In this document: piece by piece, positions 9,316-34,730 of the stretch | Layout: each line of letters opens with the position of its first letter | How positions within the stretch are numbered: position 1 is the stretch's first letter | Origin: a virus | Strand: one strand, 5' to 3' | Length of the DNA stretch: 41,336 nt | IMG/VR virus record: IMGVR_UViG_3300048593_000256 | Coordinates: 1-41,336 of that record | Program-made: the position numbers and the translations under genes | Notes under the pieces: model-generated | Databases searched by the model: none | Told to the model about the DNA's origin: nothing | What the model saw: only the letters and a program-made list of their open reading frames with translations

Positions 9316-9465
9316 ACAATGCGGAATGCGCAGGCTGATGCGCAGCGAAAAGGGCTTAGGAGCTTGGCTGTATCAGGAGCCTTGAGGCAGTAGCCAATAC
9401 CCATTCAGATCGTCTGTAGCAGCCAAAAGCTGGAAGAAGTCGATAACAGCACCGGCCCGCATTGT
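9316..9465 (+). repeat. Copy A of the shared RNA module
   Basis: A closing helix of 9 bp (9316-9324/9457-9465) is followed directly by the hairpin block AATGCGCAGGCTGATGCGC (9325-9343). The 3' side has a 5-bp hairpin (9429-9433/9452-9456) holding the 18-nt loop AAGAAGTCGATAACAGCA. The same parts occur in the same order at 34618-34730 on the other strand. ACCCATTCA (near 9399-9407) is also shared. Copy A has about 50 more bases between the two conserved blocks. Confidence 0.8.
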
Positions 9466-9703
9466 GCAGTAAGGCGGAACAGAAATGGCCTCCGAGTCCT
9501 AGCCGAGAGGCTAGTTGAAGTCCATCGGCAAGGTGCGCCCTCCGATGGCAAGGCAGTAAGGCGTGGCCCCGGCCATACGGGGCGCTGAACCCTACGGCCT
9601 CCCGCTGGGCCGGCCTTACACCGCATCCTCCCAGTGTAAGGAGAGGCGAAAGCCGCAGCGGGAACATTCAGTTCTGCGATGGGTCGCAGATAAGGAGGAA
9701 GGC

Positions 9704-10105
9704 ATGATAATCGCGACAGGTAGCGCCGGCATCCCGCGCGGGGCGCTGGCTAAGATCCGCAAGATAGCGGATGGCTCTTTTGTGTCTCGGATCGATATTG
9801 ACCCGCCGCCGATTGAAGGCTGGGAAGTGGACAGGGCGACAGGTATTGCCCTAGCCATGCGGTGCGTGGAGCCGCACTCGGATGTTTGGCTTGGCACAGG
9901 CCCTGAACCGCCCGCACGCGATCAGGCGTCATTATTTTGGCTCTTGCAAGAGCCGCGGCGCGGACGTTTTTATTTGCAGTGTGGCGAAGGCTTCGCCGGG
10001 CTGGGTCGCGGCGATTGGGTGCTATTCCCGCACGATATTGCTGCGCACTGCGCGACTGCGGACAGCCTGTGGCGCGGGGTTGCGTGGCAGTGCAGGCGGA
10101 TTTAA
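9704..10105 (+). CDS. Hypothetical protein downstream of ncRNA-1
   Basis: 133 residues; the ATG at 9704 follows TAAGGAGGAAGGC, a strong ribosome binding site. The frame can be extended back to 9563, but only through conserved-looking RNA helices. Sequence features include IDPPPIEGWEVDRATGIALA and a C-terminal beta-rich region ending GDWVLFPHDIAAHC. No domain recognised. It is the only gene between the large RNA and the terminator at 10183, so it may be expressed from the same transcript. Confidence 0.75.
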   Translation: MIIATGSAGIPRGALAKIRKIADGSFVSRIDIDPPPIEGWEVDRATGIALAMRCVEPHSDVWLGTGPEPPARDQASLFWLLQEPRRGRFYLQCGEGFAGLGRGDWVLFPHDIAAHCATADSLWRGVAWQCRRI

Positions 10106-10148
10106 GGTGTTCCCGGGCCCCGGGCGTGCGGCGGATGGTTGCTCATCG

Positions 10149-10181
10149 CGCCGAAGTTTCTAGGTTGCCAGCCTAGAGGCG
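10149..10181 (+). other. Two-part hairpin in the 3' untranslated region
   Basis: A 6-bp stem (10159-10164/10172-10177) with the 7-nt loop TTGCCAG sits on a 4-bp stem (10149-10152/10178-10181) across a one-sided internal loop. It lies directly upstream of the bidirectional terminator. The arm resembles a tRNA anticodon arm (GCC), but no tRNA can be built around it. Confidence 0.4.
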
Positions 10182-10182
10182 G

Positions 10183-10207
10183 AAAAGGCCCCTGATCGGG
10201 GCCTTTT
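10183..10207. terminator. Bidirectional rho-independent terminator
   Basis: A perfect 10-bp stem AAAAGGCCCC (10183-10192) / GGGGCCTTTT (10198-10207) with loop TGATC. The A-run on one side and T-run on the other let it work in both directions. It sits exactly between the convergent genes 9704-10105 (+) and 10217-10414 (-). Confidence 0.9.
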
Positions 10208-10216
10208 CTTTGCCGC

Positions 10217-10414
10217 TTAGCCGGCAGGTCGCCAGCGGTTCGGCGGAGGATAGTTTTCCTCGTCCCAAGTCGTGCGCACTGGCCCCATTGGCGTGAAAGC
10301 CATTCCGACCCATCTGCGGCCATCGTGAGACATAAGGACTTCGCCGACATCCGGCATGCTGTCGTTCGAGACATAAACCGGAATGCCTCGGGGCGCGGTG
10401 TTGATCGGGTTCAT
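10217..10414 (-). CDS. Small conserved-type phage protein (TAPRGxPVxV...)
   Basis: 65 residues. MNPINTAPRGIPVYVSNDSM then DVGEVLMSHDGRRWVGMAF and a proline-rich end. This 'I-x-T-A-P-x-x-x-P-V-x-V' start followed by a WVG core is a common small phage/prophage protein type of unknown role. Third gene of a leftward operon; its ATG overlaps the stop of the upstream gene (ATGA). Confidence 0.75.
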   Translation of the reverse strand: MNPINTAPRGIPVYVSNDSMPDVGEVLMSHDGRRWVGMAFTPMGPVRTTWDEENYPPPNRWRPAG

Positions 10415-10572
10415 GTGCTGGCATCCTTAAGTGCGTACTCGATTGCGGCCCTTTCCGACCCCTTGGCCGCGATCAGCGCCGCAAGGGCCTTGATCGCTTC
10501 GGGGCAGAGCAGGACCGCGCTAAGTCGGCGGCCCTTGGCTCGGTGTTTGGCGACTCTGGCGGTGGAGGTCAT
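10411..10572 (-). CDS. Small ribbon-helix-helix-like protein
   Basis: 53 residues, read from 10572 down to 10411. TSTARVAKHRAKGRRLSAVL is a basic N-terminal strand, followed by two predicted helices (CPEAIKALAALIAAKGSERA, then AIEYALKDAS). That is the length and order of a ribbon-helix-helix (CopG/Arc-type) DNA-binding protein. It overlaps both neighbours by ATGA, so the three genes form one coupled operon. It may regulate its own operon (inference). Confidence 0.62.
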   Translation of the reverse strand: MTSTARVAKHRAKGRRLSAVLLCPEAIKALAALIAAKGSERAAIEYALKDAST

Positions 10573-10751
10573 GCTCGAAGCACCCAGCCGATGAGCGTAT
10601 CGCCGTCGTCGTCCCTGAGCTCAAGATCGGATGTTTCCGCATCTTCGGCATAAAAGCCATACCGTTCAGCCATTGCGGGGAGTTCGGCTTTGGAGAAATG
10701 AACGGGACGCGAGCGGTCTGCAAACCGAATAACAAAATCGAAACTGGGCAT
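10569..10751 (-). CDS. Hypothetical small acidic protein
   Basis: 60 residues from ATG 10751, preceded on this strand by CGAGGAAAAGACA. Sequence PSFDFVIRFADRSRPVHFSK then ELPAMAERYGFYAEDAETSD. The frame extends upstream to 10892, but the extra part crosses a terminator-like hairpin and is unlikely to be translated. First gene of the leftward operon 10751-10217. Confidence 0.72.
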   Translation of the reverse strand: MPSFDFVIRFADRSRPVHFSKAELPAMAERYGFYAEDAETSDLELRDDDGDTLIGWVLRA

Positions 10752-10865
10752 TGTCTTTTCCTCGTTAGTGGCTAGGCGCTTTGCCCTGCCGATGTGTGTA
10801 GATTGCCAGAGTTGCCGGAAACAGTCAACAGTAATCCGACGAATGGTAGTAGGCGCAACAGGGGG

Positions 10866-10895
10866 TTGACGAGTCAAGGGGAAGAGAAGCAAAAT
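10866..10895 (+). promoter_or_regulatory. Dyad TTGAC-GA-GTCAA with promoter-like spacing
   Basis: TTGACGAGTCAA (10866-10877) carries a -35-like element on both strands and is a 10-bp dyad. On the plus strand CAAAAT (10890-10895) lies 18 bases after TTGACG. Either a weak promoter or an operator between the leftward operon and the late genes. Confidence 0.3.
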
Positions 10896-10924
10896 GGAGC
10901 CCGGATAATGACATCCCGGGCTCC
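10892..10924 (-). terminator. Leftward terminator or attenuator hairpin
   Basis: A 9-bp perfect stem (10896-10904 with 10916-10924) and 11-nt loop. Read leftwards it is followed by ATTTTGCTTC, a short U-run, as in a rho-independent terminator. It lies upstream of the leftward operon starting at 10751, so it could end a short leftward transcript or attenuate the operon. Confidence 0.55.
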
Positions 10925-10981
10925 GCTGCCTTACCTCATAACAAGGTGGCGTGCTTGCTAAACATTATCCGCACCCTCCTT

Positions 10982-11065
10982 CGCAGTTAGACCCTCTGCG
11001 ATTAGGGGCTCTCGGTCAGAGCAGCTAGTCATCAAACCCGTCCCCTGTTGGCGCAGGGGGCGGGT
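10982..11065. other. Three consecutive hairpins in the 10752-11138 intergenic region
   Basis: Stems at 10982-10986/10996-11000, 11008-11012/11018-11022 and a long 12-bp hairpin 11036-11047/11054-11065 (one G-U pair). The 387-base gap between the leftward operon and the late genes otherwise holds the terminator-like hairpin at 10896-10924, the dyad at 10866 and only tiny open frames on the minus strand. No larger gene is seen. Confidence 0.5.
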
Positions 11066-11079
11066 CCGAACGGTAGTAG

Positions 11080-11093
11080 TGTTCCATTTTTGT
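11080..11093 (+). repeat. 14-nt repeat TGTTCCATTTTTGT (second copy)
   Basis: Identical to 314-327, the short gap after dnaB. Both copies lie 35-62 bases upstream of the first gene of a rightward block. Possible phage-specific control element. Confidence 0.5.
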
Positions 11094-11138
11094 TCGCAAT
11101 GTGGTATTCTCGGCCGAACTAGGACCGGGAACGCGACA

Positions 11139-11264
11139 ATGAAGAATGCTCCGCCCCCTAAGAAGGCTCCGCCCCCTAAGAAAGCGCCGCCACCGAGAAG
11201 GCCGACCCCAAAAGAGAATCCGGGGTTTCTCGGCAAGTCAAAGAAACAGAACAACCCCGGCTGA
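11139..11264 (+). CDS. Pro/Lys-repeat small protein
   Basis: 41 residues: NAPPPKKAPPPKKAPPPRRP followed by TPKENPGFLGKSKKQ. The DNA holds near-perfect tandem copies of a CCGCCCCCTAAGAA-type unit, so the repeat can expand or contract. Highly basic and probably unstructured; polyproline II conformation is likely. Its stop overlaps the endolysin ATG (TGATG). Function unknown; short Pro/Lys-rich proteins of this sort occur near phage lysis or structural genes. Confidence 0.6.
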   Translation: MKNAPPPKKAPPPKKAPPPRRPTPKENPGFLGKSKKQNNPG

Positions 11265-11686
11265 TGCTCCCGATCCGCTTTCTGACGATCCATTGCGCCG
11301 CGACCCCCGAGGGGCGCGATAACTCTGCCGAGGAAATACGGCGGTGGGACATTGCGCGCTTTGGCCAACCTAGCTATCACATTGTCATTGAGTTGGACGG
11401 CGACGCAGTCCGTCATTTGCGAGACGATCAGCGCGGCGCGCATGTCGCCAAGGCGAACACTGGAAACATTGGAATCTGCTACGTCGGCGGCACGGAGACG
11501 CTCAACGCTGGCGGGAAGCCAAAGGACACGCGCACGCCGGCCCAAAAAGCGACAATGGCGAGATTGGTTCGGGAGTATCAGGCCAAGTATCCCGGGATCA
11601 AGGTTAGGGGGCATCGCGATTTGCCGGGCGTCAAAAAGGCGTGCCCGAGTTTTGATGTTGCGGCGTGGCTGAAGGAAATCGACTGA
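11264..11686 (+). CDS. Endolysin: N-acetylmuramoyl-L-alanine amidase (T7 lysozyme-like)
   Basis: 140 residues of the amidase_2 fold. It cuts the bond between N-acetylmuramic acid and the stem peptide of peptidoglycan. Zinc ligands are visible: H10 in LTIHCAATP, H117 in VRGHRDLPGV and C127 in KKACPSF, as in T7 lysozyme (His, His, Cys). The SYHIVIELDG and NTGNIGICYVGG strands are also typical. Length is close to T7 lysozyme (about 150). No signal sequence, so it needs the downstream holin for export. T7 lysozyme also inhibits T7 RNA polymerase, but no phage polymerase gene is seen here. Confidence 0.93.
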   Translation: MLPIRFLTIHCAATPEGRDNSAEEIRRWDIARFGQPSYHIVIELDGDAVRHLRDDQRGAHVAKANTGNIGICYVGGTETLNAGGKPKDTRTPAQKATMARLVREYQAKYPGIKVRGHRDLPGVKKACPSFDVAAWLKEID

Positions 11687-11985
11687 TGGCCGTTGAGACT
11701 TTGTCGGACTATGCGGTGTGGGCCTTGTGCGCGGCGTCTGCTTACCTAGGCAAAAAGACCTTGGACAATGACCGGGCCGTTGCGGCGCTCGAACTCAAGG
11801 TTGAAAAAGAGTTCCAGCGCAAAGAGGGGTTAGAGGAGACGATCCGCAAGGCCGTAGACGCCGCATTTGTGCCGATGAATGCAAAGCTGGATCAGGCGCT
11901 AGAGGAGTTGGAGACGCAGCGCCTAGACCTGAATATCATTTTGGACAAGTTTGAAGTGCCGGCGGGGCAGCGGAATGGGCACTGA
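11686..11985 (+). CDS. Small membrane-associated coiled-coil protein in the lysis cassette
   Basis: 99 residues, ATG overlapping the endolysin stop by one base (TGATG), preceded by GAAGGAAATCGAC. A weakly hydrophobic N-terminal helix (YAVWALCAASAYLG) is followed by a long charged coiled coil (ALELKVEKEFQRKEGLEETI). Location suggests a lysis accessory or a holin-like partner; no family recognised. Confidence 0.65.
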   Translation: MAVETLSDYAVWALCAASAYLGKKTLDNDRAVAALELKVEKEFQRKEGLEETIRKAVDAAFVPMNAKLDQALEELETQRLDLNIILDKFEVPAGQRNGH

Positions 11986-12298
11986 TCATGAAGTCTTACG
12001 GCAGGTGAAAGCGCGTCAAGACAAGCTGGAGCGGCTTATTCAGGACGTGAAGGAGCTAAGGCAGACCCCGCCGGCCGTAGGAGCCAATACGGGGACGGCC
12101 ACGATCACGGTCAACATGGGCGGGTGGGGTGTGGCGGTAGCGGTCTGTGCGGCCCTGTTTTGCCTCTTGCTGGTGATTGACATGCGGAACGATCAGCGAG
12201 ATTCCAATCGCAAGATCGAGAGAGCGCAGGACTACAACAACATGCTGTGGCAGAGATACCCGGAGCTACGTCCGGAGAATTTGGAGAAGAAGCAATGA
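11975..12298 (+). CDS. Coiled-coil protein with one transmembrane helix, lysis cassette
   Basis: 107 residues from ATG 11975. N-terminal coiled coil (QVKARQDKLERLIQDVKELR), then a transmembrane helix at about residues 50-69 (GGWGVAVAVCAALFCLLLVI) and a charged tail. Topology with one helix between charged domains fits a class III-like holin partner or regulator. It overlaps the preceding gene by 11 bases and the next by ATGA. Confidence 0.65.
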   Translation: MGTDHEVLRQVKARQDKLERLIQDVKELRQTPPAVGANTGTATITVNMGGWGVAVAVCAALFCLLLVIDMRNDQRDSNRKIERAQDYNNMLWQRYPELRPENLEKKQ

Positions 12299-12579
12299 GC
12301 ACCCCGATCATTATTGGCGGAAGCCCGCCCCCGCCGCCCCCGCCTAGGAAATTGCTAGGCATCCCGTTGACCAGTGACGCCGGTCAGGTTCTCCGCAAGT
12401 GGTCTACCAAGCTGGTAGCGATCGCGGGTCTGTCCACGCTGGCGCTTTCGACCTATGCGGCGTGGCCGGCCCGGCTGCAAGAGCTTACCCCCGATTGGGC
12501 GCTTGGCGTTTTGGCTGTCTTGCAATTCGTCTATGTACTGGTCCCTGCGGCTACTTCGATCCTCCAGAGGACCAAATGA
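12295..12579 (+). CDS. Probable holin (two transmembrane helices)
   Basis: 94 residues, ATGA overlap. A run of seven prolines near residues 11-17 and a basic segment precede two hydrophobic helices at about 39-57 (KLVAIAGLSTLALSTYAAW) and 68-88 (WALGVLAVLQFVYVLVPAA), with a short basic C-terminus. Size, topology and position between endolysin and spanins fit a holin that forms the membrane lesion releasing the endolysin. The neighbours at 11686 and 11975 are alternative or accessory holins. Confidence 0.75.
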   Translation: MSTPIIIGGSPPPPPPPRKLLGIPLTSDAGQVLRKWSTKLVAIAGLSTLALSTYAAWPARLQELTPDWALGVLAVLQFVYVLVPAATSILQRTK

Positions 12580-13085
12580 CCCCGTATCTGCCCGCGCTCA
12601 AATGGCTAGGCGTCGGCGTGCTGATCGTCGGCGTCTGGTTTCATGGTTACTCGAAAGGTAACGACGCGGGCGAGGTCGAGGTTGCGAAGCTGACCGCCAA
12701 GCATGCCGAGACGATGCGGTCAATCGAAGAGGAATTCCGGAGACTGGAAGCCGAGGCCCGGATCAAAGAGCACCAAATGGCGGATGAGTTGGCAAAGATC
12801 GCCGCCGCATACGAGGACGACAAGCATGAAATTGCACAGAGTACCCGCAATGCTGTTTTGGCTGACTTGCGCGCTGGCCGTATCCGGCTGCGCCAGCCTA
12901 CCCAAACAGTGCCCGCCACCGATCAATCTCCCGCCGCCGCCGGCCAATGTGATGGCCAAGCCGCAAGCGGAAGCCAAGCTGAGGGCGATCTTGTTCGAGC
13001 CGCCGACATCATCGCAATCGGCGCAGAGTCAGACGCCCAACTCGCAGCCTGTCAGTCCGTGATTCAGTCTTATCGGCTGGATTAA
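12576..13085 (+). CDS. Rz: Inner-membrane spanin Rz
   Basis: 169 residues, ATGA overlap with the holin gene. N-terminal transmembrane anchor at about residues 8-26 (KWLGVGVLIVGVWFHGYSKG), then a long periplasmic coiled coil (KHAETMRSIEEEFRRLEAEA). This is the i-spanin layout; it complexes with the outer-membrane lipoprotein Rz1 to fuse inner and outer membranes in the last step of lysis. Rz1 is embedded in its coding sequence in another frame. Confidence 0.88.
   Translation: MTPYLPALKWLGVGVLIVGVWFHGYSKGNDAGEVEVAKLTAKHAETMRSIEEEFRRLEAEARIKEHQMADELAKIAAAYEDDKHEIAQSTRNAVLADLRAGRIRLRQPTQTVPATDQSPAAAGQCDGQAASGSQAEGDLVRAADIIAIGAESDAQLAACQSVIQSYRLD
12826..13062 (+). CDS. Rz1: Outer-membrane spanin lipoprotein Rz1 (nested in Rz)
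   Basis: 78 residues read in the +1 frame entirely inside Rz, starting at ATG 12826. Signal sequence MKLHRVPAMLFWLTCALAVS with lipobox LAVSGC; C22 would be lipidated. The mature part is proline-rich (LPKQCPPPINLPPPPANV), as in o-spanins. The nested arrangement matches lambda Rz/Rz1. It shows that the host has an outer membrane. Confidence 0.88.
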   Translation: MKLHRVPAMLFWLTCALAVSGCASLPKQCPPPINLPPPPANVMAKPQAEAKLRAILFEPPTSSQSAQSQTPNSQPVSP

Positions 13086-13103
13086 AATTTACAAGTGTAA
13101 TCA

Positions 13104-13385
13104 ATGCCATTCAAGAAAGGACAATCCGGAAACCCTCGAGGCAAGCCGAAAGGCGCAGTCAGCAAGGTTGATCGCGAATTCCGCGAGACCGTGCGCATGT
13201 TGCTCGAGGAGAACGCGGACAACGTGGCGATATGGCTGCGGCAGGTCGCAGAGAAAGACCCGGACAAGGCGCTGGACAAGCTGGTGCGTCTTGCCGAGTT
13301 CGCGGCGCCGAAGCTATCGCGCGCAGAGATTGGCGGGAAGGATGGCGCCCCAATCAGCGTCAGTCTTGTGAGGTTCAGCGAATGA
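13104..13385 (+). CDS. Terminase small subunit-like protein (DUF5681 type)
   Basis: 93 residues. The N-terminus PFKKGQSGNPRGKPKGAVSK is the typical GQSGNPxGRPKG motif of DUF5681 proteins, which in phages lie next to the large terminase and are taken to be DNA-recognition small subunits. Helical remainder (ALDKLVRLAEFAAPKLSRAE). No clear ribosome binding site; an in-frame stop lies just upstream, so this is the first possible ATG. Confidence 0.75.
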   Translation: MPFKKGQSGNPRGKPKGAVSKVDREFRETVRMLLEENADNVAIWLRQVAEKDPDKALDKLVRLAEFAAPKLSRAEIGGKDGAPISVSLVRFSE

Positions 13386-13663
13386 TCTTTGTCCCGAAGT
13401 CTGGCGAGCTGGCATACAGGCGCGGCCGACAGGTCTGCATTGACATCGGCGAGGCTGTCCGAGAGCACCAGCTTGCCGGGCGCCATGTCGAGGAAGTCCG
13501 AATCTCCAAGAACGTGGGCGCAGACATGCGGGTGTTCTATACGCAGGCGGCGCAGGCGTTCGACAACGTGCTGCCCAAGCGCATTCTTGGCGTCCCGCTG
13601 ATTGAGGGCGAGACAGACGGGAAGGACGTGGTGATTCGTGTCGGCGATCACAGTACCTGCTAA
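13382..13663 (+). CDS. Hypothetical protein between terminase subunits
   Basis: 93 residues, ATGA overlap with the previous gene. Beta-rich sequence (IFVPKSGELAYRRGRQVCID; VLPKRILGVPLIEGE). It overlaps the large terminase gene by 26 bases. No family recognised. Position suggests a packaging or head-assembly role, otherwise unknown. Confidence 0.65.
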   Translation: MIFVPKSGELAYRRGRQVCIDIGEAVREHQLAGRHVEEVRISKNVGADMRVFYTQAAQAFDNVLPKRILGVPLIEGETDGKDVVIRVGDHSTC

Positions 13664-15026
13664 CGGCTGGCGGCCTCGGCCGTACCAGATGCCCGCATGG
13701 CTCGCGATGGAGCGGGGCGTGAGGCGGCATGTCCTTTGCTGGCATCGTCGGGCAGGCAAGGATGATTTTGCGTTGCATCGCGCGGCGGTTGGGATGCTGG
13801 AGCGCGTCGGGACCTATTGGCACATGCTCCCGCAGGCTAATCAGGCCCGCAAGGCGATATGGGATGCAGTGAATCCGCACACAGGCCGGCGCCGCATTGA
13901 TGATGCGTTTCCGCAAGAGCTGCGGGACGTGACCCGCGAGCATGAAATGTTCATCCGTTTCAAAAACGGATCGACGTGGCAGGTTGTGGGCTCTGATAAT
14001 TTCGATGGTCTGGTCGGTTCTCCTCCGGTTGGCGTGGTGTTCTCTGAATACGCATTGGCCAACCCCGATTCGTGGGGCTTCCTACGCCCGATCCTTGCCG
14101 AGAACGGCGGATGGGCGATGTTCATTTCTACCCCGAGGGGCCGAAATCACTTTGCCCGACTTCTCGAATACGCAAAGGCAAACCCCGCAGAATGGTACGG
14201 CGAGAGTCTGACGGTCGAAGATACGGGGGCAATTGCGCCGGAAGTCATTGATCGGGAACGCCGGGAACTGTCAGCGGAGCGCGGAGACAAGGAAGCAAAG
14301 GCAATCGTTCAGCAGGAGTATTTTTGCGATCTTGATGCCGCCATCCCGGGCGCCTACTACGGCGACCACATGGCGAGCGCGGAGCGTGAAGGGAGGATTG
14401 CGCATTTGCCGTGGGTTCCTGCGCTGCCGGTGTATGTGGCGTCAGACCTTGGGCATGGCGACCAGTGTGTTAATTGGTTCTGGCAAGAATTGCCCTCCGG
14501 TCGGATCAGGATTGTGGATGTTCTCGCGGGTTCTGGTGTCGGGATCGATTGGTACGCAAAGCGAGTAACCGCGATGCCGTACACGATCCGGGAAACGTTG
14601 TGGCCTCATGACGGGGCGCATAACAATATTCGGGATGAAAACGGGACGAATCTACAGGCGCAGGCTAAGCGTTTGGGCTGGCATCCGATCAGGATTGTCC
14701 CGAAAGACCCTAGTGTCGAAACAGGCATTCAGGCGGTTCGGCAGTTGTTCGGGACTTTGGAATTCAACACCGACCCGATCCCGCATCTTAAATCAGATGG
14801 CGACATGGAAACGCAAGACGAGGCCCGTTCCCGCATGTCCCGCGCAATGGATGCGTTGCGAGGCTATCGGCGGGAGTGGGACGAGAAACGTCAGCGTTTC
14901 AAGGATGCGCCGCTGCATGATTGGACATCCGACTACGCCGACGCACTGCGAACGCTTGCCCGAGGGAAGAAGAAGCCCGAGCACATGCGTCCGGAGATAC
15001 GCCAACGTTTCGCGATTATGGAGTGA
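13638..15026 (+). CDS. terL: Terminase large subunit
   Basis: 462 residues with a GTG start. N-terminal ATPase: adenine-binding RPRPYQ, Walker A CWHRRAGKD (about residues 34-42), Walker B GVVFSEYALAN (about 131-140) and the coupling motif STPRGRNHF. C-terminal RNase H-like nuclease with acidic residues in YVASDLGHGDQ and SDYADALRTLARG. It pumps DNA into the prohead and cuts concatemers. The length is typical for podovirus terminases. The first ATG-initiated alternative (13689) would delete part of the adenine-binding region, so GTG 13638 is preferred. Confidence 0.93.
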   Translation: MSAITVPANGWRPRPYQMPAWLAMERGVRRHVLCWHRRAGKDDFALHRAAVGMLERVGTYWHMLPQANQARKAIWDAVNPHTGRRRIDDAFPQELRDVTREHEMFIRFKNGSTWQVVGSDNFDGLVGSPPVGVVFSEYALANPDSWGFLRPILAENGGWAMFISTPRGRNHFARLLEYAKANPAEWYGESLTVEDTGAIAPEVIDRERRELSAERGDKEAKAIVQQEYFCDLDAAIPGAYYGDHMASAEREGRIAHLPWVPALPVYVASDLGHGDQCVNWFWQELPSGRIRIVDVLAGSGVGIDWYAKRVTAMPYTIRETLWPHDGAHNNIRDENGTNLQAQAKRLGWHPIRIVPKDPSVETGIQAVRQLFGTLEFNTDPIPHLKSDGDMETQDEARSRMSRAMDALRGYRREWDEKRQRFKDAPLHDWTSDYADALRTLARGKKKPEHMRPEIRQRFAIME

Positions 15027-15029
15027 GCA

Positions 15030-18063: not shown

Positions 18064-18123
18064 CGCCGTGAAAGAACGGCGCGTGACCGGCGTTAGGGTC
18101 ATGCTGGGCCCCGGCGATGCCGG
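18064..18123 (+). promoter_or_regulatory. Hairpins in the leader of the major capsid gene
   Basis: Between the stop at 18063 and the capsid ATG at 18166 lie a 6-bp hairpin (18064-18069/18076-18081) and a 5-bp hairpin with a 3-nt loop (18111-18115/18119-18123). No U-run follows, so they look like mRNA-stability or processing elements for the highly expressed capsid gene rather than terminators. Confidence 0.45.
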
Positions 18124-18165
18124 AGAAGCCCCGCGAACGAATCCCCATTCATTCGAGGTTTTCTC

Positions 18166-27747: not shown

Positions 27748-29591
27748 GTTTCCTTTACGTCCTCCCGCAAGAAGAGCGTCAGGCGGCACAGACTGCTGCC
27801 AGAATGCCATCCGATCCGGAGGGGCTGGAGCCGGGCTTTTTTGAAGGCCTGCCCGGCGCGTACTCGTCTGCGGTGCAGCGGGTTACAGCGGTTACGGCCA
27901 AGGGGATTATTGAGGGCGAGAGCGCGGCGCGGCGGCTGGTCGATTCCGCGTTCGGGACGAACTTCGCCGACTCCATGGAGGTCATGCGGGAGCGCGCCCG
28001 GCAGAATGTCGCGAGGACTTCGCCCGATCCGTACACGACTGGCACTCTCGGGAACATCCTGTATGGGCTGATTGGAACGGGCCTTCCCGCCGCAGTAGGC
28101 GCGGCCTACGGCGGCCCCGGGGGCGCGGCACTGGCGACGGGCGGCGCGGTTGGTGTGGGCACCTATGCAGACCTCCGGGCGCAAGGTGTAGACCCCGGCA
28201 CGGCGCAGCAGGGCGCGACGCTGGACGCGATACTGGCTGCCGGCGGCGTCTTTGCCCCCGCGGCAATTGGCGGCCGTGTAACGCTGTCCACGCTCGTTTA
28301 CGGACCCGGAATCAATGTGGCGCAAGACTTGGCCGCGACGCAGGGCATCGCGGAGCTTTTGGAGTCGCAGGGATATCAAGAGCTATCGGAGCATTATCGC
28401 CAGATTAACGGGGAAATGCTGGTGGCTAGCGCCCTCCTTGGGGCGGGGTTCGGCTACCTTGGCGCGCGCGACGCAGCCATGACCGCGGTCGCGAGGAAGC
28501 ATGTCGAGCTGGATACTGCGCCCGGGATTCCTGCGAACCACGCCGCGCTTCAAGAGCATGTCCGCAACTTGGCAACCGCGGAAGAAGCTTTATTGACGGG
28601 GCAGCCTGTCCGGGTCGAGTCGAGAGGCGTTTACATCGAGCGCCCCCCGATAGAGGGGGATACGGTGCTGTCCGCGCTTCGGGAGAGCGGTTATCCGGAA
28701 TTGCTTGGAGATATTCGCGCGCTGGAGTTGGAGCTTTCCGCCCGTGGCCGCGCTGTCGAAGATGAAGGCATCCTCCCGCGGGCCGAGCGTCGAGCGGACG
28801 CCGCAGAAATTGAGCGACTGAAAACCTTGCGGGCAGAATGGCAGGCCGGGAAGCTTGACCCCGCGGGGTATGATGAACTCCAAACACTGGAGACCCGAGA
28901 CCGTCTTTCTGCAAAGGTGGGCGGGCGCAGAATCCAAGGGGTTCAGAATCTTGAGGCGTATGTTGAAGCGGAGGCCCGCGGGGAATTGCTCCCTGTTCGC
29001 GGCTTTGCGGATGCGGACAACTTCAAGGCGGTCAACGATGAGCTTGGGCATTCTGCCGGCGATCAGGCAATCGTGACGTTGGCCCGGGTGTTCTCGGAAG
29101 AACTTGGAGAAGGCCGGGTATTCCATCGGAGCGGGGATGAGTTCCTGTTCCATGCCCGGACCCCGGAGGAGTTGGACGCCGCAATGTCTCGGGCAAGAGC
29201 GAGACTTGAGCGGGCCGAGCTGGTCGGATATCGTCCGGATGGGGCGACCGTTTCCCGGAAGGGTTTGCGTTTCAGTTATGGCAAGGGTGAAACCGTAGAG
29301 GCCGCAGAAAATGCCCAAACAGCAGACAAAGCCGCAAGAAAAGCCGCAGGGCTCCGCACCGACCGAGCTGAACCGACTTCCGAGCCTGTCCGAAGCCGTG
29401 AAGGAATGGGCGATGAAGGGGCCGCTCGTGAGGTTGGAGCTTCGCGTCCCGCCGAAATCGTAGACGAGACCGGCCGCGCCGTCTCAGCGGATGAAATCCT
29501 CGCCCAAGGCGATCAGGCCGTTTCAAAAGCCCGTCAAGATTCAGCCGGGTTTGATGCGGCGATCAATTGCTTCCTTAGGAATGGCGCATGA
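27744..29591 (+). CDS. Internal virion protein with a GGDEF domain
   Basis: 615 residues, GTG start in GTGA overlap. The N-terminal half is helical with Gly/Ala-rich hydrophobic segments (TLGNILYGLIGTGLPAAVGA; GGAALATGGAVGVGTYADLR). From about residue 405 a GGDEF fold is clear: FADADNFKAVNDELGHSAGD (D423, D425, F427-K428, N431-D432, G435-H436, G439-D440), then the active-site loop RSGDEF (S463-F467), and later LRFSYGKGETVEAAENAQTA. Metal- and base-binding residues are present; the first G of GGDEF is Ser and the usual RxxD inhibitory site is absent. A cyclic-dinucleotide or GTP-binding role after ejection is inferred. C-terminus is a disordered linker. Confidence 0.82.
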   Translation: MSFLYVLPQEERQAAQTAARMPSDPEGLEPGFFEGLPGAYSSAVQRVTAVTAKGIIEGESAARRLVDSAFGTNFADSMEVMRERARQNVARTSPDPYTTGTLGNILYGLIGTGLPAAVGAAYGGPGGAALATGGAVGVGTYADLRAQGVDPGTAQQGATLDAILAAGGVFAPAAIGGRVTLSTLVYGPGINVAQDLAATQGIAELLESQGYQELSEHYRQINGEMLVASALLGAGFGYLGARDAAMTAVARKHVELDTAPGIPANHAALQEHVRNLATAEEALLTGQPVRVESRGVYIERPPIEGDTVLSALRESGYPELLGDIRALELELSARGRAVEDEGILPRAERRADAAEIERLKTLRAEWQAGKLDPAGYDELQTLETRDRLSAKVGGRRIQGVQNLEAYVEAEARGELLPVRGFADADNFKAVNDELGHSAGDQAIVTLARVFSEELGEGRVFHRSGDEFLFHARTPEELDAAMSRARARLERAELVGYRPDGATVSRKGLRFSYGKGETVEAAENAQTADKAARKAAGLRTDRAEPTSEPVRSREGMGDEGAAREVGASRPAEIVDETGRAVSADEILAQGDQAVSKARQDSAGFDAAINCFLRNGA

Positions 29592-32077
29592 GAGCGGAAT
29601 GTATCCAAGCGGTTGAATCCGCGGTTGGCCGGGCGATCACTGTATCGGAGGCCCGCGGGATTGAGCAGCGCATCCGCGACGCGATGGCCATGATCGCCAA
29701 GGAAGACCCGCAGACGTGGCACGCCATGCCGGAAGCGGATCGCCTCAAGATGGCGGCGAAGCGCGCTGCTGAAGAATTGATTGCGGAAGCTGCGAAGAAA
29801 AAACAGCGTCTGCAATTGATGGTTCAGGCACATGATGGAATCGAAGCCTACATTGCCGACCGGTCCGCGAAGAATCGCGAGCTAGCTACCGATACCTTCT
29901 CGCGTCTGATTGCCGCTCGAACCGACTCCAGAAACGGGGTTATCTCTGCGGAGGATTCCGCAAAAGGAATCAATGCCGTTGCTCTCGGCCGGCTGACGGA
30001 CGCATTTGATGCGGCGAGTCCGCGACTTCTTGGGTTGCTTGCGGATCGAACCGCTGAATCCGAGCTGGTGCGCGCGCTTCACGGGGACAAGAACGCCCGC
30101 CCCGAGATTGCCAAAGCGGTACAGGCTTGGGTGGAAGTGACGGATTCCCTGCGGGAGCGTTACAACGCGGCCGGCGGCACCATCGGAAAGATGGACAATT
30201 GGGGCATGCCGCATTCGTGGGATCAGGCGCTAGCGTCCAGCCTTGGCAAACAGCAGTTTGTGGATGATCTTTTCTCGCTAGTGGATCGCTCGCGTTACGT
30301 GCACGAAGATGGCCGCCTGTATTCCGATGATGAGATGAAAGCGTTTCTCGCGGAAGCGTGGACGACGATTGTCAAGAACCGTGCGAACAAGCCGATTGCG
30401 AAGGGCTCCGGCGTCAAGGCGAACCGTCATTCCCAGCACAGGCAATTGCACTTCCGAGATGCGGAGGCGACGCTACAGGCTCTAGAGAAATACTCCGGGA
30501 AGAGTGTTTTAGAAGCGATGGTTGGTCATGTCCGCCAGCTTTCCCGCGACATTGCGATCATCGAGACATTCGGTCCAAACGCGGATCATACGGTGTCTTT
30601 CTTTCTTGACAAGATTCGCCGAGAGTTGACCAAGGCGTCGCCTGAAAAAGAGGAGGCTGTAAATAAGTCGATCCGTTATATCGAACACCTTTATGACAAC
30701 GTCGCCGGGAACGTCTCTCCTCCGCCGAACAGAAAGCTAGCCGATGCATTCGGAATTGTACGTTCCGTGATTACCGGCTCTCGGCTTGGGTCGGCCGCGA
30801 TCACGTCGATTTCCGATGAGGGGACACTTTATCTGACTGCCGCGGTCAATAATATCCCGGCACACAAAGTATTTCTGAATGAGATTGCGGCGCTGAACCC
30901 AGCGGATCAGGTTGAAAAGAACCTAGCCCGCCGAGCTGGATTGCTTGCGCACACCATGACCAATGAGTTGGACCGGTTCGGCACGGAGACGATGGGGTCG
31001 GATATCCCCGCAAAGATCACCTCTGCGGTTATGCGTGCGTCTGGATTGAACGCGATTACCGAGGTTCGCCGTCGCGCCTTCTCTGTCGCGATGATGGACA
31101 CCATCGGCTCATTGACCCGCCGCGTGAAGTCTGTTGACGACTTGGACCCGGCCGATTGGAGAATCCTCCGAGACAAGGGAATCACTCAGGAGGAGTGGGA
31201 TATCTGGCGCGCGGCCGAGCTGGATAAAGGCAGGGGCGATGATACGATTCTGACGCCGGAATCGATCTACAGGCTTGACGGCGTTGACCCAATCGCCAAA
31301 GAGAAAGCAGCAACAAAGCTGCTTTCCGTCGTCCTGTCCGAGCAAGACATTGCGGTGATTGAGCCGGGCGCTCGCGAAAGAACACTTATGCAGGCTGGCG
31401 CGGAGCGGGGCACATGGAAGGGTGAGCTTGTCCGTTCGTTCTTTCAATTCAAGTCGTTCCCCATTGCGATGATGTATCGCCACTGGGGAAGGGCGCTCAA
31501 GATGTATGACAGAATGCCGCAAAAGGTCGGCTATCTGACCGCGCTTATTGGCATGCAGACTGCATTAGGCGCGCTGGCGATGCAAACGAATGAAGTCCTT
31601 TCAGGCAAGAACCCGCGCAACATGAATCCGATGGAGGAATTCGGCGCGAGGAATTGGCTAGCCGCCCTGCTGAAAGGCGGCTCGCTCGGCCTTTATGGTG
31701 ACTTCCTCTTTGCCGAAGCCTCGCGCTATGGGCAGACCTTCTTAGGGGCTGTCGGCGGGCCGATGGTGGGACTTGTGGAGGATTCCTACAAGCTGACGAT
31801 GGGCAACATTCAGCAGTCGATGCGGGGCGAGGAAGCGGACGCCGGGGCAGAGTTTGTCCGGTTTATCCGGTCGAATACTCCCGGCTCTTCTTTGTGGTAC
31901 ACCAAGGCCGCTGTTGATCGGATGACCACACACCAGCTTATGGAGTACATGAATCCGGGGTACTTGCAGAGGATGCAGCGCAAGGCTTACCGAGACCGCG
32001 GGGAAACTTACTGGTGGGAGCCCGGCCAGCCGATTCCCGATCAGGCGCCGGAGTTCGAGACAGCTATCGGTGATTAA
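29588..32077 (+). CDS. Large internal virion (ejection) protein
   Basis: 829 residues, ATGA overlap, preceded by TTAGGAATGGCGC. Highly helical N-terminal half (RDAMAMIAKEDPQTWHAMPE; AAKKKQRLQLMVQAHDGIEA), the segment NWGMPHSWDQALASSLGKQQ, and a C-terminal part with amphipathic membrane-type helices (LTALIGMQTALGALAMQTNE). Similar large proteins end the late operon of BPP-1-like podoviruses and are packaged in the head. The DNA cargo channel role is inferred from family. Its stop overlaps the stop of the convergent leftward gene by four bases. Confidence 0.8.
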   Translation: MRAECIQAVESAVGRAITVSEARGIEQRIRDAMAMIAKEDPQTWHAMPEADRLKMAAKRAAEELIAEAAKKKQRLQLMVQAHDGIEAYIADRSAKNRELATDTFSRLIAARTDSRNGVISAEDSAKGINAVALGRLTDAFDAASPRLLGLLADRTAESELVRALHGDKNARPEIAKAVQAWVEVTDSLRERYNAAGGTIGKMDNWGMPHSWDQALASSLGKQQFVDDLFSLVDRSRYVHEDGRLYSDDEMKAFLAEAWTTIVKNRANKPIAKGSGVKANRHSQHRQLHFRDAEATLQALEKYSGKSVLEAMVGHVRQLSRDIAIIETFGPNADHTVSFFLDKIRRELTKASPEKEEAVNKSIRYIEHLYDNVAGNVSPPPNRKLADAFGIVRSVITGSRLGSAAITSISDEGTLYLTAAVNNIPAHKVFLNEIAALNPADQVEKNLARRAGLLAHTMTNELDRFGTETMGSDIPAKITSAVMRASGLNAITEVRRRAFSVAMMDTIGSLTRRVKSVDDLDPADWRILRDKGITQEEWDIWRAAELDKGRGDDTILTPESIYRLDGVDPIAKEKAATKLLSVVLSEQDIAVIEPGARERTLMQAGAERGTWKGELVRSFFQFKSFPIAMMYRHWGRALKMYDRMPQKVGYLTALIGMQTALGALAMQTNEVLSGKNPRNMNPMEEFGARNWLAALLKGGSLGLYGDFLFAEASRYGQTFLGAVGGPMVGLVEDSYKLTMGNIQQSMRGEEADAGAEFVRFIRSNTPGSSLWYTKAAVDRMTTHQLMEYMNPGYLQRMQRKAYRDRGETYWWEPGQPIPDQAPEFETAIGD

Positions 32078-32430
32078 AGCATACTCCAGTCAATCAATGT
32101 TTCCTGCTGAAACCAACGCAGGACGATCCAGAAATAAGGATCGTCCTTAACGTGGTGACTGTCGATGTAGCGATTGATTGCCGCAGCTAATGAGGCATGC
32201 CATTCCAAGCCGTCAACGTATTTCATCCCGTAAAGTCGCTCTTGCCGCCCGGGCGGTTCATGGCAATAAGACTCCCGCATTGCGATCCAGTTTTCGACGA
32301 ACGCATAGCGACCGGTCGGAATTAGTGCCGCCCAATCGCCCCAGCCCAATCGGCACGGCTCATAAGGCCCAGCGAAATGCAATGCTCTTTTTATGGCCGA
32401 CTTCGCTTCCTTGATTAGTCTCTCGCTCAC
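32074..32430 (-). CDS. Hypothetical protein, last gene of the leftward block
   Basis: 118 residues. Aromatic-rich (CRLGWGDWAALIPTGRYAFV; DDPYFWIVLRWFQQETLIDW). No family recognised. ATGA overlap with the upstream gene; tail-to-tail with the large ejection protein gene with no room for a terminator. Confidence 0.7.
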   Translation of the reverse strand: MSERLIKEAKSAIKRALHFAGPYEPCRLGWGDWAALIPTGRYAFVENWIAMRESYCHEPPGRQERLYGMKYVDGLEWHASLAAAINRYIDSHHVKDDPYFWIVLRWFQQETLIDWSML

Positions 32431-32633
32431 TTGTCCAGCCCCAGCGACACAAGCGCCTCATTAAACGCCTTTTTCATCTGATCCACATGGAACGGATCAA
32501 TGCCGGGCGGGCATACAAGCTGCGGCACGCCGTCTATTTCCGCGACGGCGCATAGCGTTATCATGGTGTTTTGCGGCCACGGGAGCCTGCGCCCTGTTGC
32601 CTCTAGGGCCTCAATCGCTTGGTTGTTATCCAT
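32427..32633 (-). CDS. Hypothetical small protein
   Basis: 68 residues from ATG 32633, preceded on this strand by GGCGGAGATA. DNNQAIEALEATGRRLPWPQ then MITLCAVAEIDGVPQLVCPP. Unknown function. An upstream in-frame start (32666) lacks the ribosome binding site. Confidence 0.68.
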   Translation of the reverse strand: MDNNQAIEALEATGRRLPWPQNTMITLCAVAEIDGVPQLVCPPGIDPFHVDQMKKAFNEALVSLGLDK

Positions 32634-32855
32634 TATCTCCGCCTGTTGAAAATAAAGTCGCCCCACTCAAGGCGGGGGCGTTGCCTACAGCGTCACGGCT
32701 GGAAAGTACGGGCTAGGCATGCACTAGTGACCGGGCATCTACGATGCAGGAAAATGCCGCCGCTGTTGCCGTGGTTTGGCCTATGTTTTCCGGCCGGCAC
32801 CTTTATACGGTTTCGATTCCGTCACGGCTTACCGCCAGTTTATGGACTTGGTCGG
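32634..32855. other. 222-base intergenic stretch with direct repeat
   Basis: No convincing gene. Contains a 10-nt direct repeat CGTCACGGCT (32691-32700 and 32820-32829), a 5-bp hairpin 32735-32739/32743-32747 and the segment CGGCTGGAAAG ... TAGGCATGC. The last resembles CGGCTGGATAG ... TAAGGCATGC within ncRNA-2 (34930-34890, minus strand). Possibly a remnant or a small RNA. Confidence 0.35.
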
Positions 32856-33503
32856 TCATGCAAGCTGTTCTAGCGGGCGCTTAAGATCGTACAGCGCGCG
32901 AAGATGTTTGAACGCCTCCCATGCCTCGGGAATGGGTTGATAGCTATGATGATGAAAATCGCCGCGCTCCTTCCCGAATCTCAGCAAATGCCACCGCTCG
33001 AAAGGTTCTCCTGTGCTCTCCAAGTCAAGATGATGATACGCGGCCAACTGGATCAGGTGCTCGGCATATGTGCCGTTCGATGTCTTGAAGTCGATCAGGA
33101 CTTTCTTTGATCCCTTGCGGCCTATGCCATCCAGCGTGCCGCCATACTTGAACTGTTCTGAAACGTACGCGGCCTCGGACTCGACGACTTCGATTCTGCT
33201 ATCTTCGCGCCATTCAAGGTAGGCGGCGAACGCGCTCCTGACCTTCTTTGCCGCCTCCTCCGGTATGTCTGGCATAACGAACTCTCGCCCCTTGATATGG
33301 CACTCTGCGGCTTCGTGGGCGATGGTCCCGATCTCTGCGGCTGCGTCACGCTCCCCGTAGAGCTCTTTCCCTTCGAGACCCATCCTGTGAGCCCACTTCA
33401 TGAGCGGGCCTTTGCTCCAGCCTAGGGAAGTTCCGAGGACCGTTGTGGTCCCCGGAATCTTCGTCCCATCGGCGAGTGTATAGCCTTGCTTATGTGTTGG
33501 CAT
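32856..33503 (-). CDS. PD-(D/E)XK exonuclease (RecB/Cas4-like phage nuclease)
   Basis: 215 residues. Restriction-type nuclease core: H63 region IGTIAHEAAE, acidic E108/E110 then KYGGTLDGIG (D125), VLIDFKTSNG (D138, K140) and HLIQLAAYHH (Q152, Y156). This is the PDDEXK_1 layout of phage recombination exonucleases. With the SSB-like gene two bases upstream it likely forms a recombination/replication pair working on single-strand ends. Confidence 0.85.
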   Translation of the reverse strand: MPTHKQGYTLADGTKIPGTTTVLGTSLGWSKGPLMKWAHRMGLEGKELYGERDAAAEIGTIAHEAAECHIKGREFVMPDIPEEAAKKVRSAFAAYLEWREDSRIEVVESEAAYVSEQFKYGGTLDGIGRKGSKKVLIDFKTSNGTYAEHLIQLAAYHHLDLESTGEPFERWHLLRFGKERGDFHHHSYQPIPEAWEAFKHLRALYDLKRPLEQLA

Positions 33504-33505
33504 GG

Positions 33506-34120
33506 TCAGAGATACTTGTCATCGTCGCCCCAATACTGCGCGGCTTCTTCAACAACGTGCTGCTCAGATTTTGGCTGGAGCTGGGACGCGATCTTTTCGC
33601 GAAGCTTTTTTGGCAGCTTATCGTAAACCGAATCCGGAGATTCAGCGGTAAACAGTATCGTTTCGCTCTCTGGCGGAGGAGGCGCAAGGCCCTTCAAGAG
33701 GGGGGATGCGCTAGCAATATCTGCATAGACCTCTCCTCCTCTCTCTGACTCAGATACACTAAGGAGGCATGCCTTGCCGAGAAGTGCGGAAATATCGAAT
33801 TTCGCAGCTTCTGCATCCGTGAACGCCCTCCCTCGCCACCCTTCGATAAACTTGCGTAACGTGGCTTTTGAGTTCATGGAGGCGGTGAAGTTGCGGCCAA
33901 TCACCGCTGGGGCATCGATCATTTTCCCGTCTTTTTCGTACTGAACGCGCTCGCTCGGGATTTCAAAGCGAAGATGAATTTTTCGCTTTGGCTCGGGGTA
34001 TTGAGACGATCCGGGCTGAAGGCCAAGGTCAGCCACGATAACGCAGACCGCCAGATGAGTTCCGGCGGGGACGCGCTTGAAGTCGCCGCTACTACCGCCA
34101 ACAGGAAGGGTAAGGCTCAT
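33506..34120 (-). CDS. Single-strand-DNA-binding-like phage protein
   Basis: 204 residues from ATG 34120, supported by TTGGAGAACACA; a TTG at 34132 would overlap that site. VPAGTHLAVCVIVADLGLQP then PKRKIHLRFEIPSERVQY form OB-fold-like strands, and a helical region KATLRKFIEGWRGRAFTDAE follows. The acidic C-terminus ends EEAAQYWGDDDKYL, resembling the acidic tip of SSBs. Proteins of this build usually accompany phage exonucleases and are called SSB or DUF669-like. Assignment by context and composition. Confidence 0.65.
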   Translation of the reverse strand: MSLTLPVGGSSGDFKRVPAGTHLAVCVIVADLGLQPGSSQYPEPKRKIHLRFEIPSERVQYEKDGKMIDAPAVIGRNFTASMNSKATLRKFIEGWRGRAFTDAEAAKFDISALLGKACLLSVSESERGGEVYADIASASPLLKGLAPPPPESETILFTAESPDSVYDKLPKKLREKIASQLQPKSEQHVVEEAAQYWGDDDKYL

Positions 34121-34154
34121 TGTGTTCTCCAATTCGGCATTTCGCCATTTGATA

Positions 34155-34202
34155 CCGGGTTCCCGCCCGGCTCGGGCGCGCGCCTTAGCGGGCCTCGCGC
34201 GC
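34155..34202 (-). promoter_or_regulatory. Two stacked hairpins in the leader of the SSB-like gene
   Basis: 7-bp GC stem 34176-34182/34196-34202 and 5-bp stem 34155-34159/34166-34170 with loop TTCCCG (plus strand). The latter lies 35 bases before the minus-strand start at 34120. A near-identical CCGGG/CCCGG hairpin lies before the gene at 35653. Confidence 0.5.
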
Positions 34203-34208
34203 TAGACC

Positions 34209-34292
34209 CTAGAACTCGGGGTAAGTATAAGGCCCGTCCGTCTCATATGATGGGATGTCGGGTTCGTTCGGGTCGGTTACGTCGGGGAACAT
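34209..34292 (-). CDS. Possible 27-residue acidic microprotein
   Basis: ATG at 34292 follows the TGA of the upstream gene by one base, and 27 codons read MFPDVTDPNEPDIPSYETDG then PYTYPEF. Very acidic and aromatic, unlike shadow translation of GC-rich DNA. No ribosome binding site; expression would depend on re-initiation. Tentative. Confidence 0.35.
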   Translation of the reverse strand: MFPDVTDPNEPDIPSYETDGPYTYPEF

Positions 34293-34293
34293 A

Positions 34294-34587
34294 TCAGACG
34301 ACCACGCGATAATCAGTGGCCACATATTCGTAAGGCTCGACCTCGGGGCATTCCTGCTCATCCCCGTAATAACCGCAGCTCTCGGTCTCTTGGCTTTCCG
34401 TGAGCGGGCGGCGGATGTGCGTCATGTAAAGCTTTCCATCAAGCTCAAAAACGACGCGGCGCACGGATTCCCAGCGCCGGGCTTCGATGTACTTTTCTTC
34501 GATGATCTTGGCGTTTTTGAGCGAGCCGATTTCATGCTCGCCGCAACCATTGAAAAGCTCGACGAGTTCAGTTGTCTTGAATTGCAT
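34294..34587 (-). CDS. Hypothetical small protein downstream of ncRNA-2
   Basis: 97 residues from ATG 34587 with a strong site CTGGAGGAAGT. QFKTTELVELFNGCGEHEIG then KIIEEKYIEARRWESVRRVV and a C-terminus rich in Glu/Tyr. No family recognised. The structured module B ends only 31 bases before the ATG, so its translation may be influenced by that RNA. Confidence 0.7.
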   Translation of the reverse strand: MQFKTTELVELFNGCGEHEIGSLKNAKIIEEKYIEARRWESVRRVVFELDGKLYMTHIRRPLTESQETESCGYYGDEQECPEVEPYEYVATDYRVVV

Positions 34588-34617
34588 ACTTCCTCCAGTT
34601 GATTGCGGTTGAAACTC

Positions 34618-34730
34618 AGGGGATCGGACTCGGGCCGGTGCTGCTATCGACTTCTCCCGGCTTGAATGGGTCGCTGTCACCTGCCGTCAAGCGGCGCGCA
34701 TCAGCCTGCGCATTCCGAGTCCGATCCCCT
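34618..34730 (-). repeat. Copy B of the shared RNA module
   Basis: Read on the minus strand: 16-bp closing helix, then AATGCGCAGGCTGATGCGC (34714 to 34696), a 41-base middle with ACCCATTCA, and a 5-bp hairpin (34661-34657/34638-34634) with the 18-nt loop GAGAAGTCGATAGCAGCA. The 21 bases GG + AATGCGCAGGCTGATGCGC are identical to 9323-9343. The 23-base 3' block differs from 9435-9457 at one position. Confidence 0.8.

Follow-up and report, generated by a model that had tools for sequence, protein, structure and literature searches.

Phage non-coding RNAs that occur in tRNA neighbourhoods include GOLLD and ROOL. The nearest known RNA to the element described here is STnc100 (Rfam RF02076), a gammaproteobacterial prophage sRNA established by Northern blot as an expressed stable RNA in E. 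coli O157:H7 (PMC5331693). A second point of reference is provided by putL and putR of phage HK022, phage-encoded structured RNAs, two to a phage and in different operons, that closely follow early promoters (PMC9378689). The present analysis concerns a 41,336-nucleotide stretch of viral DNA (IMG/VR record IMGVR_UViG_3300048593_000256; hereafter the window), for which a preliminary description had proposed one structured RNA module occurring twice, on opposite strands. Comparison with Rfam, including the models for GOLLD, ROOL and HEARO, returned no family that matched the window, the individual modules or the canonical copies, and a literature text search, with most subscription papers outside its scope, found no earlier description or sequence mention. 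The family to which these modules belong is a very widespread phage RNA, unannotated and absent from Rfam.

Copies of the element within the window

Inspection of the sequence located modules A and B exactly where the preliminary description had placed them, but its count of two fell short, since a third copy (A') adjoins module A (Table 1). A structure-and-sequence model recovered all three from the window (B, E = 8e-13; A, E = 3e-8; A', E = 5e-4). The closing helices had the lengths claimed for them, 9 bp in A (ACAATGCGG/CCGCATTGT) and 16 bp in B (AGGGGATCGGACTCGG/CCGAGTCCGATCCCCT), while the statement that they differ completely held for the outer pairs, the inner GG/CC pairs being part of the shared 21-base block GGAATGCGCAGGCTGATGCGC. 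That block, identical in A and B as described, has exactly two matches in the window against 0.01 expected by chance. Both modules also carry a 5-bp P3 hairpin whose 18-base loop ends in CAGCA, and the stem sequences given in Table 1 therefore reproduce the reported change from a U-G pair in A to C-G in B. The 18-base loop (..AAGTCGATNRCAGCA) proved to be a sub-lineage marker (loci L025, L139, L065 and L119), and the middle ACCCATTCA, previously regarded as a shared part of the module, sits in the variable insert and is no family-wide feature. In module A the CAGC of the P3 loop is complementary to GCTG in the P2 loop, making pairing possible; in A' both kissing strands are one base shorter, a concerted loss in the P2 and P3 loops. 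The candidate promoter upstream of A' is weak, two such sites being present in the stretch against 1.7 expected by chance, and no intrinsic terminator was found directly after the window copies.

Table 1. Positions of the three copies, their parts and neighbouring features in the window.
Feature	Position	Strand	Details
Candidate promoter	8750..8778	+	TTGAAA-17-TAGAGT, TG before second hexamer; ~125 nt upstream of A'
Third copy, A'	8905..9049	+	P1 GGGGTG/CACCCC; P2 loop GGCGA; P3 GCCGG/CCGGC, loop GATCGCAT
Module A, whole element	9316..9465	+	P1 9316-9324 / 9457-9465 (9 bp)
Module A, P2 hairpin	9328..9343	+	GCGCA/TGCGC, loop GGCTGA 9333-9338; from the sequence and P2 covariation in relatives
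Module A, variable insert ('payload')	9344..9428	+	85 nt
Module A, P3 hairpin	9429..9456	+	GCTGG/CCGGC, 18-nt loop AAGAAGTCGATAACAGCA
Amidase/endolysin	11264-11686	+	Lysis gene downstream of A'/A
Rz-like spanin	12399-13085	+	Lysis gene downstream of A'/A; lysis-gene span 11264..13085
Terminase large subunit	starts 13638		After lysis genes
Exonuclease	32856-33503	-	Leftward gene downstream of B; leftward-gene span 32856..34132
phrog_862 protein	33506-34132	-	Leftward gene downstream of B
Module B, whole element	34618..34730	-	P1 34730-34715 / 34633-34618 (16 bp)
Module B, P3 hairpin	34634..34661	-	GCCGG/CCGGC, 18-nt loop GAGAAGTCGATAGCAGCA
Module B, variable insert	34662..34695	-	34 nt
Module B, P2 hairpin	34696..34711	-	Loop GGCTGA

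A constant frame maintained by compensatory change

The element has a constant frame, kept up by compensatory change, in which P1 (free in sequence) is followed by an AA linker, P2 with the loop GGCUGA, the insert, and P3, which abuts P1 and has the loop ..UCAGC. In 84 contexts selected without regard to P1 pairing, the three innermost free P1 pairs formed in 82, 82 and 81 cases; shuffling the 3' strands among contexts reduced these counts to 37, 42 and 55, confirming that the closing helices covary among homologues. An alignment of 38 sequences exhibited compensatory change at 12 pairs, with a covariation score of 0.301; shuffling lowered the score to 0.090, and slid versions did not exceed 0.07. 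Variants of the P2 stem among relatives included GCGT/ACGC, GCAC/GTGC and GCGCG/CGCGC, with GCTC/GAGC in phage PAJU2. The P2 and P3 loops can kiss: in the sampled copies CAGC of the P3 loop stands opposite GCUG of the P2 loop, an arrangement for which the search is in part responsible. Because the 21-mer and CAGC served as search anchors, some of the constancy seen in P2 and in the loops is likewise built in.

The proposal that the module is a functional RNA and no DNA repeat is supported by the P1 pairing, by the 12 compensatory pairs and by strand agreement with tRNAs and promoters. Covariation in P1, together with the strand specificity of the associated promoters, terminators and tRNAs, led to a DNA repeat or recombination site being rejected as the main interpretation. 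The possibility of a short coding frame (GGAGAGGA-ATG..) was likewise rejected, insert length being unconstrained and the leading bases variable.

Exchangeable inserts

One frame carries one of very many inserts, about 23-190 nt in length, between P2 and P3; in a partial sample, 233 copies fell into 174 insert families. The same insert occurs within different P1s and in different phages, and the same flank accompanies different inserts: one five-member insert family has five different P1s, a single insert is common to an IMG/VR contig (L054) and the P1-like phage RCS47, and one Burkholderia-type flank accounts for five copies with four insert families. Between phage P1 and RCS47 the difference amounts to exactly one array unit that contains the frame. 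When two insert motifs were used as queries, every additional match fell within the same frame. With more than 170 inserts swapped between unrelated phages, these phages therefore appear to carry exchangeable RNA cargo. Covariation is also evident within at least one insert family: in A4 (six sequences), 10 of the 20 predicted pairs show compensatory change. Averaged over the inserts, stability was only modestly higher than that of shuffled sequences (mean z -0.56).

Distribution of the family

Searches of viral contigs returned at least 118 exact matches to the 21-base block and at least 120 further matches to its TG-type variant, and a fold descriptor identified 222 copies among the fetched loci, with no match once the sequences were reversed. 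The carriers are phages of Beta- and Gammaproteobacteria, and include the reference phages P1, D3, PAJU2 and PY54 together with lytic Klebsiella and E. coli phages. Matches at E ≤ 0.1 were recorded in 1005 of 5426 complete E. coli genomes, about a fifth, and no copy was found in the K-12 prophages e14 and CPS-53.

Genomic setting and possible function

Gene orientation was taken from annotated phages and PHROG counts, simple ORF calling being too noisy in GC-rich DNA. Copies occupy untranslated leaders downstream of early-left and late phage promoters, and also phage tRNA/ncRNA arrays, that of phage P1 included. Of 163 contexts, 55 had a promoter-like site 50-300 nt upstream on the same strand and 17 had one on the opposite strand, and copies agreed in strand with their tRNA neighbours in 11 of 11 cases.

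The reading tentatively preferred, though held at somewhat short of even confidence, is that the element is a scaffolded, exchangeable stable-RNA cassette of operon leaders and tRNA/ncRNA arrays. The frame would fold once transcribed, and the loop-loop contact would then clamp it into a stable piece of RNA presenting the insert, the putative working part, which may bind RNA or protein of host or phage; inserts could be swapped through recombination, either at the conserved ends of the frame or from one array unit to another. A broader proposition, put forward with slightly more reserve, is that phages of Beta- and Gammaproteobacteria share such cassettes, in which a constant kissing-loop frame holds more than 170 independently conserved domains exchanged between unrelated phages, array units are gained and lost, and the inserts form an accessory repertoire of RNA effectors. 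If so, that repertoire would be comparable to protein accessory genes, and the combination of frame and swappable inserts does hint at an exchange of RNA effectors among phages similar to that of accessory genes. Phage P1 offers a ready genetic test.

The main rival, itself rather unlikely, is a cis-acting nascent-RNA antiterminator like HK022 put, whereby the frame would bind the RNA polymerase transcribing it and cause terminators, and Rho, to be ignored across an operon or a cluster of tRNAs, with the insert serving as tolerated ballast or as a folding tuner; such activity would explain leader readthrough in lambda-like phages without an N gene. Position at the start of operons is no less suited to a cis role than to a stable-RNA cassette. 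In PAJU2 one copy (-), preceded by a promoter (TTGACA-17-TAGATT), stands between the repressor and the first left-operon gene, and another (+), followed after 11 nt by an intrinsic terminator, between Q and the lysis genes; PHROG neighbours comprise repressors upstream and RecE/Erf/RecT/exonuclease and terminase downstream; and the window copies precede the lysis genes and the leftward exonuclease operon. The copy in phage YA3 (43682-43805) lies after Q and before or at the holin; this phage is reported to lack an N homologue and to have a terminator resembling tR' (PMC7326022). Intrinsic terminators 0-200 nt downstream are enriched (26 on the same strand, 7 on the opposite), yet a recognisable terminator stands close downstream in only about 12% of contexts, and the promoter-tRNA-terminator units of the lytic phages HC6 and KP591P1 leave little downstream for readthrough. 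The phage P1 array, moreover, is situated behind two tRNAs at least 0.8 kb from the promoter, HK022 itself has no match to the family model, and polymerase binding needs no covarying, exchangeable inserts.

No protein family common to D3, PS-1, AP1, KP591P1, HC6, Marin and the window phage was detected at E<1e-4, a threshold that small divergent proteins may escape. For a put-like element this would be expected because host polymerase alone would suffice, and a dedicated phage protein partner was rejected from the same comparison of seven carriers. That comparison also counts against a nut-like or riboswitch-like leader bound by a phage-encoded protein or small molecule, an improbable reading to which the leader position and conserved loops lend some weight, but against which the downstream genes differ widely and insert diversity is too great for one ligand. 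Slightly more doubtful still is a tRNA-like element processed with neighbouring tRNAs (P1 as acceptor stem, P2 as D arm, P3 as T arm, the kiss in place of the D-loop/T-loop contact), in that same-strand copies in tRNA clusters, short P1s that often have 7 bp and ACC or ACCA directly after them, and T-arm-like hairpins in nine insert families (1.3 expected) are set against a P3 loop that differs from a T loop, P1s of 8-20 bp without CCA in many copies, ACC ends derived mostly from related phages, and copies that neither ARAGORN nor the Rfam tRNA model recognised.

Comparison with known RNAs

Set beside the Rfam structure line of STnc100, the family alignment (A3) exhibits the same topology of P1, P2, middle and P3. 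The STnc100 consensus consists of a closing helix of ~8 bp (..GGUG/CACC..), an AAU linker, a 5-bp hairpin with a 6-nt loop, a variable middle and, directly against the closing helix, a 5-bp hairpin (CCGGG/CCCGG), and STnc100-like copies occur in the same arrays as the family element in phage P1 and in UPM 2146. By score the link is weak (R1, 11-15 bits). The window copies did not reach the gathering score of 47 bits, and STnc100 gave no match at E ≤ 5 over the modules and none over the canonical copies. Its P2 stem and both loops differ (UGUGCG / AGGCA, without the GCUGA/UCAGC kiss), and it has its own 3' terminator hairpin, whereas the window copies have none directly after them and terminators stood close by in 29 of 209 contexts.

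With HK022 put the family shares a location downstream of early promoters, as in PAJU2 and mEp460-like prophages, the promoter evidence in the window being weak. Put, however, comprises two adjacent stem-loops of ~70 nt and lacks both the enclosing helix (P1) and the long, exchangeable inserts of the family; it acts by protein-independent antitermination via the beta' zinc-binding domain. GOLLD and ROOL are far larger than the family element. T4 stable RNAs C and D (species 1 and 2) were rejected as relatives, their sequence being different and without a match to the family model; they resemble the family in lying within a phage tRNA cluster without being tRNAs.

Copies and structure of the element

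The preliminary description of one structured RNA module present twice, on opposite strands, was borne out by the window sequence: modules A and B were found as described, with closing helices (P1) of 9 bp and 16 bp, respectively, and in each case a P3 hairpin of 5 bp holding an 18-base loop. The identical 21-base block (21-mer), which includes hairpin P2, occurred exactly twice in the window versus 0.01 occurrences expected by chance. A sequence and structure model built from relatives recovered B (E 8e-13) and A (E 3e-8), together with a third copy, A' (8902-9052, E 5e-4). A' and A are placed between a NinB-type region and the lysis cassette plus terminase, and B precedes a leftward exonuclease operon, a layout matching the plan of phage PAJU2, where the left operon begins with a copy located after the repressor and a second copy separates Q from the lysis genes.

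Coordinates of the element copies and associated features
Feature	Record	Position	Strand	Remark
Module A	window	9316-9465	+	
Module B	window	34730-34618	-	
A'	window	8905-9049	+	paired borders; 266 bases upstream of A, same strand
Candidate promoter	window	8750-8778		weak
Inverted repeat	window	34946-34863	-	upstream of B
P3-loop 10-mer	window	35003-34994	-	non-coding, upstream of B
Second array module	L373 (phage P1)	1100-1700		
Second array module	L362	2880-3850		
Second array module	L152, L153	~2850-3000		
plp, upl	NC_005856	69472-70041		annotated P1 genes
tmRNA-like match	L366	2187-2389		weak
tmRNA-like match	L362	2284-2390		weak
tmRNA-like match	L373	473-577		weak
STnc100 match	L364	3916-4129		full length

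The frame runs in the order P1 - AA - U - P2 (GCGCA/UGCGC, loop GGCUGA) - insert - P3 (GCCGG/CCGGC, loop AGAUCAGCA) - P1'. Across 84 contexts in which P1 itself was no search criterion, its innermost free pairs formed in 82, 82, 81 and 76 cases versus 37, 42, 55 and 42 after shuffling, and an alignment of 38 frames displayed compensatory changes at 12 pairs, with a score reached by no shuffle. Compensatory P2 variants (GCGT/ACGC, GCAC/GTGC and GCGCG/CGCGC) were present in copies for which the 3' motif, not the 21-mer, had served as the search anchor, PAJU2 carried GCTC/GAGC, and TG/CA replaced GG/CC pairs in a large subset of copies. A fold descriptor returned 222 copies, and none from reversed sequence.

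The P2 and P3 loops contain the complementary motifs GCUGA and UCAGC, and CAGC stood opposite GCUG in every sampled copy, which is little proof alone since CAG and GCTGA were imposed by the search. The informative case is the single instance of A', where the P2 loop GGCGA and the P3 loop GATCGCAT set GCGA facing TCGC, each side minus one base, suggesting that the two loops may form a kissing contact. In PY54 both loops had diverged and the contact was not restored.

Upstream of B lies a second long inverted repeat with perfect 17-base arms (ACCTTCAAGTCTGCGGC ... GCCGCAGACTTGAAGGT) some 50 bases apart, which the model did not assign to the element family. The P3-loop 10-mer GAAGTCGATA also recurs there, possibly as a decayed relative of the element or by chance.

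Distribution

Exact matches in viral contigs comprised at least 118 places for the 21-mer and at least 120 for a TG-type variant (TGAATGCGC...), and all 25 places from a one-genome-per-species scan fell within Beta- or Gammaproteobacteria. Annotated carriers included phages of Pseudomonas, Klebsiella, Escherichia, Salmonella, Erwinia, Acidovorax, Xanthomonas, Burkholderia and Yersinia, among others. Of 5426 complete E. coli genomes, 1005 contained a match at E<=0.1 (943 places on chromosomes, 242 on plasmids), the plasmids being mostly 85-145 kb and including, as an annotated example, the P1-like phage RCS47.

Inserts

The insert between P2 and P3 measured about 23-190 bases, and 233 distinct copies yielded 174 insert families by sequence, 30 of them with more than one member. 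Five different P1 helices occurred within one five-member family and four within another; the second RCS47 copy (also in viral contig L288) had an insert in common with L054, a viral contig with an unrelated P1; and a single 20-base flank (AAGACCAGGCCGCTCCGCTA) accompanied five copies from four insert families. In family A4 (six sequences, at least four kinds of P1) compensatory changes affected 10 of the 20 pairs predicted, and motifs that are unpaired or that close loops were invariant; family A5 was weaker, and new matches to motifs of both (L369, L370, L371) all lay within the same frame. Over all inserts, stability was on average only a little above that of shuffles (mean z -0.56; z below -2 in 12%). 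Given the swapping of inserts and P1 helices, the covariation in A4 and the confinement of motif matches to the frame, the insert is best seen as exchangeable RNA cargo, as demonstrated for one family and presumed for the rest.

Genomic context in relatives

Promoter-like sites were enriched 50-300 bases upstream on the element's own strand (within 400 bases, 55 of 163 contexts versus 17 for the opposite strand and 15 for the downstream side), and intrinsic terminators 0-200 bases downstream (26 on the same strand versus 7 on the other, with about 1-2 per 50-base bin farther on). tRNAs within 1 kb were on the same strand in 11/11 cases. HC6 and KP591P1 each carry a unit in which a TTGACA-17-TAGATT promoter is followed by a leader, the element and tRNAs. 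In phage P1 the element occupies a long untranslated leader behind the C1-controlled promoter P1ban, preceded by two tRNAs and followed by tciABC and ban, and RCS47 differs from P1 at this array by exactly one unit (element plus following tRNA-like module). The element separates a LexA-like repressor from yfdP in mEp460 and in prophages of E. coli, and lies within 1-3 kb of non-coding DNA in UPM 2146, IME11 and ep3.

A second array module (AACAGGTAAGRGYAT ... [T-arm-like GGGTTCRWATCCC] ... RTGCYCTTWCC), which has a variable middle and a closing helix of its own, was observed upstream of or between elements, and directly upstream in 16 of 229 copies. The annotated genes plp and upl, which run antisense to the RNA array of phage P1, may be spurious. 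In IME11 and P1-like phages, the region preceding the element gave below-threshold matches (13-33 bits) to tmRNA models of the permuted and alpha/beta types. The 9-mer TCACGCATG is repeated in upstream flanks (16/167 contexts) and lies just downstream of the element in D3.

Possible modes of action

Two readings account for most of these observations. Judged from sequence, the tentatively favoured one is a stable RNA cassette, whose frame would shield and display an insert working in trans; the covarying exchangeable inserts, the tRNA-cluster sites and the topology shared with STnc100, an expressed prophage sRNA (Rfam RF02076), all point that way. A cis antiterminator resembling the HK022 put RNA (PMC9378689) is the less favoured of the two; it would fit elements placed directly after early and late promoters and ahead of terminators, two copies in divergent operons, and the finding of no phage protein common to the carriers compared. 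The YA3 copy, at a late leader with a tR'-like terminator in a phage where an N homologue was not found (PMC7326022), is likewise consistent with antitermination. Covarying inserts need a purpose, and the stable cassette is preferred for that reason; the two are compatible and may hold together.

Comparison with known RNAs

No Rfam family matched the element copies, and the literature searched held no previous account of them. A full-length STnc100 match exactly at the Rfam threshold was recorded in an Ackermannviridae phage, outside the usual prophage setting. STnc100_4 is expressed in EHEC, as revealed by Northern blot (PMC5331693), and STnc100 is related to PasD, an Hfq-bound sRNA from RIL-seq (PMC13192938). 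The topology of STnc100 equals that of the frame, and the element model finds it weakly but in register (11.1 and 14.6 bits); the exchangeable-insert system would be new.
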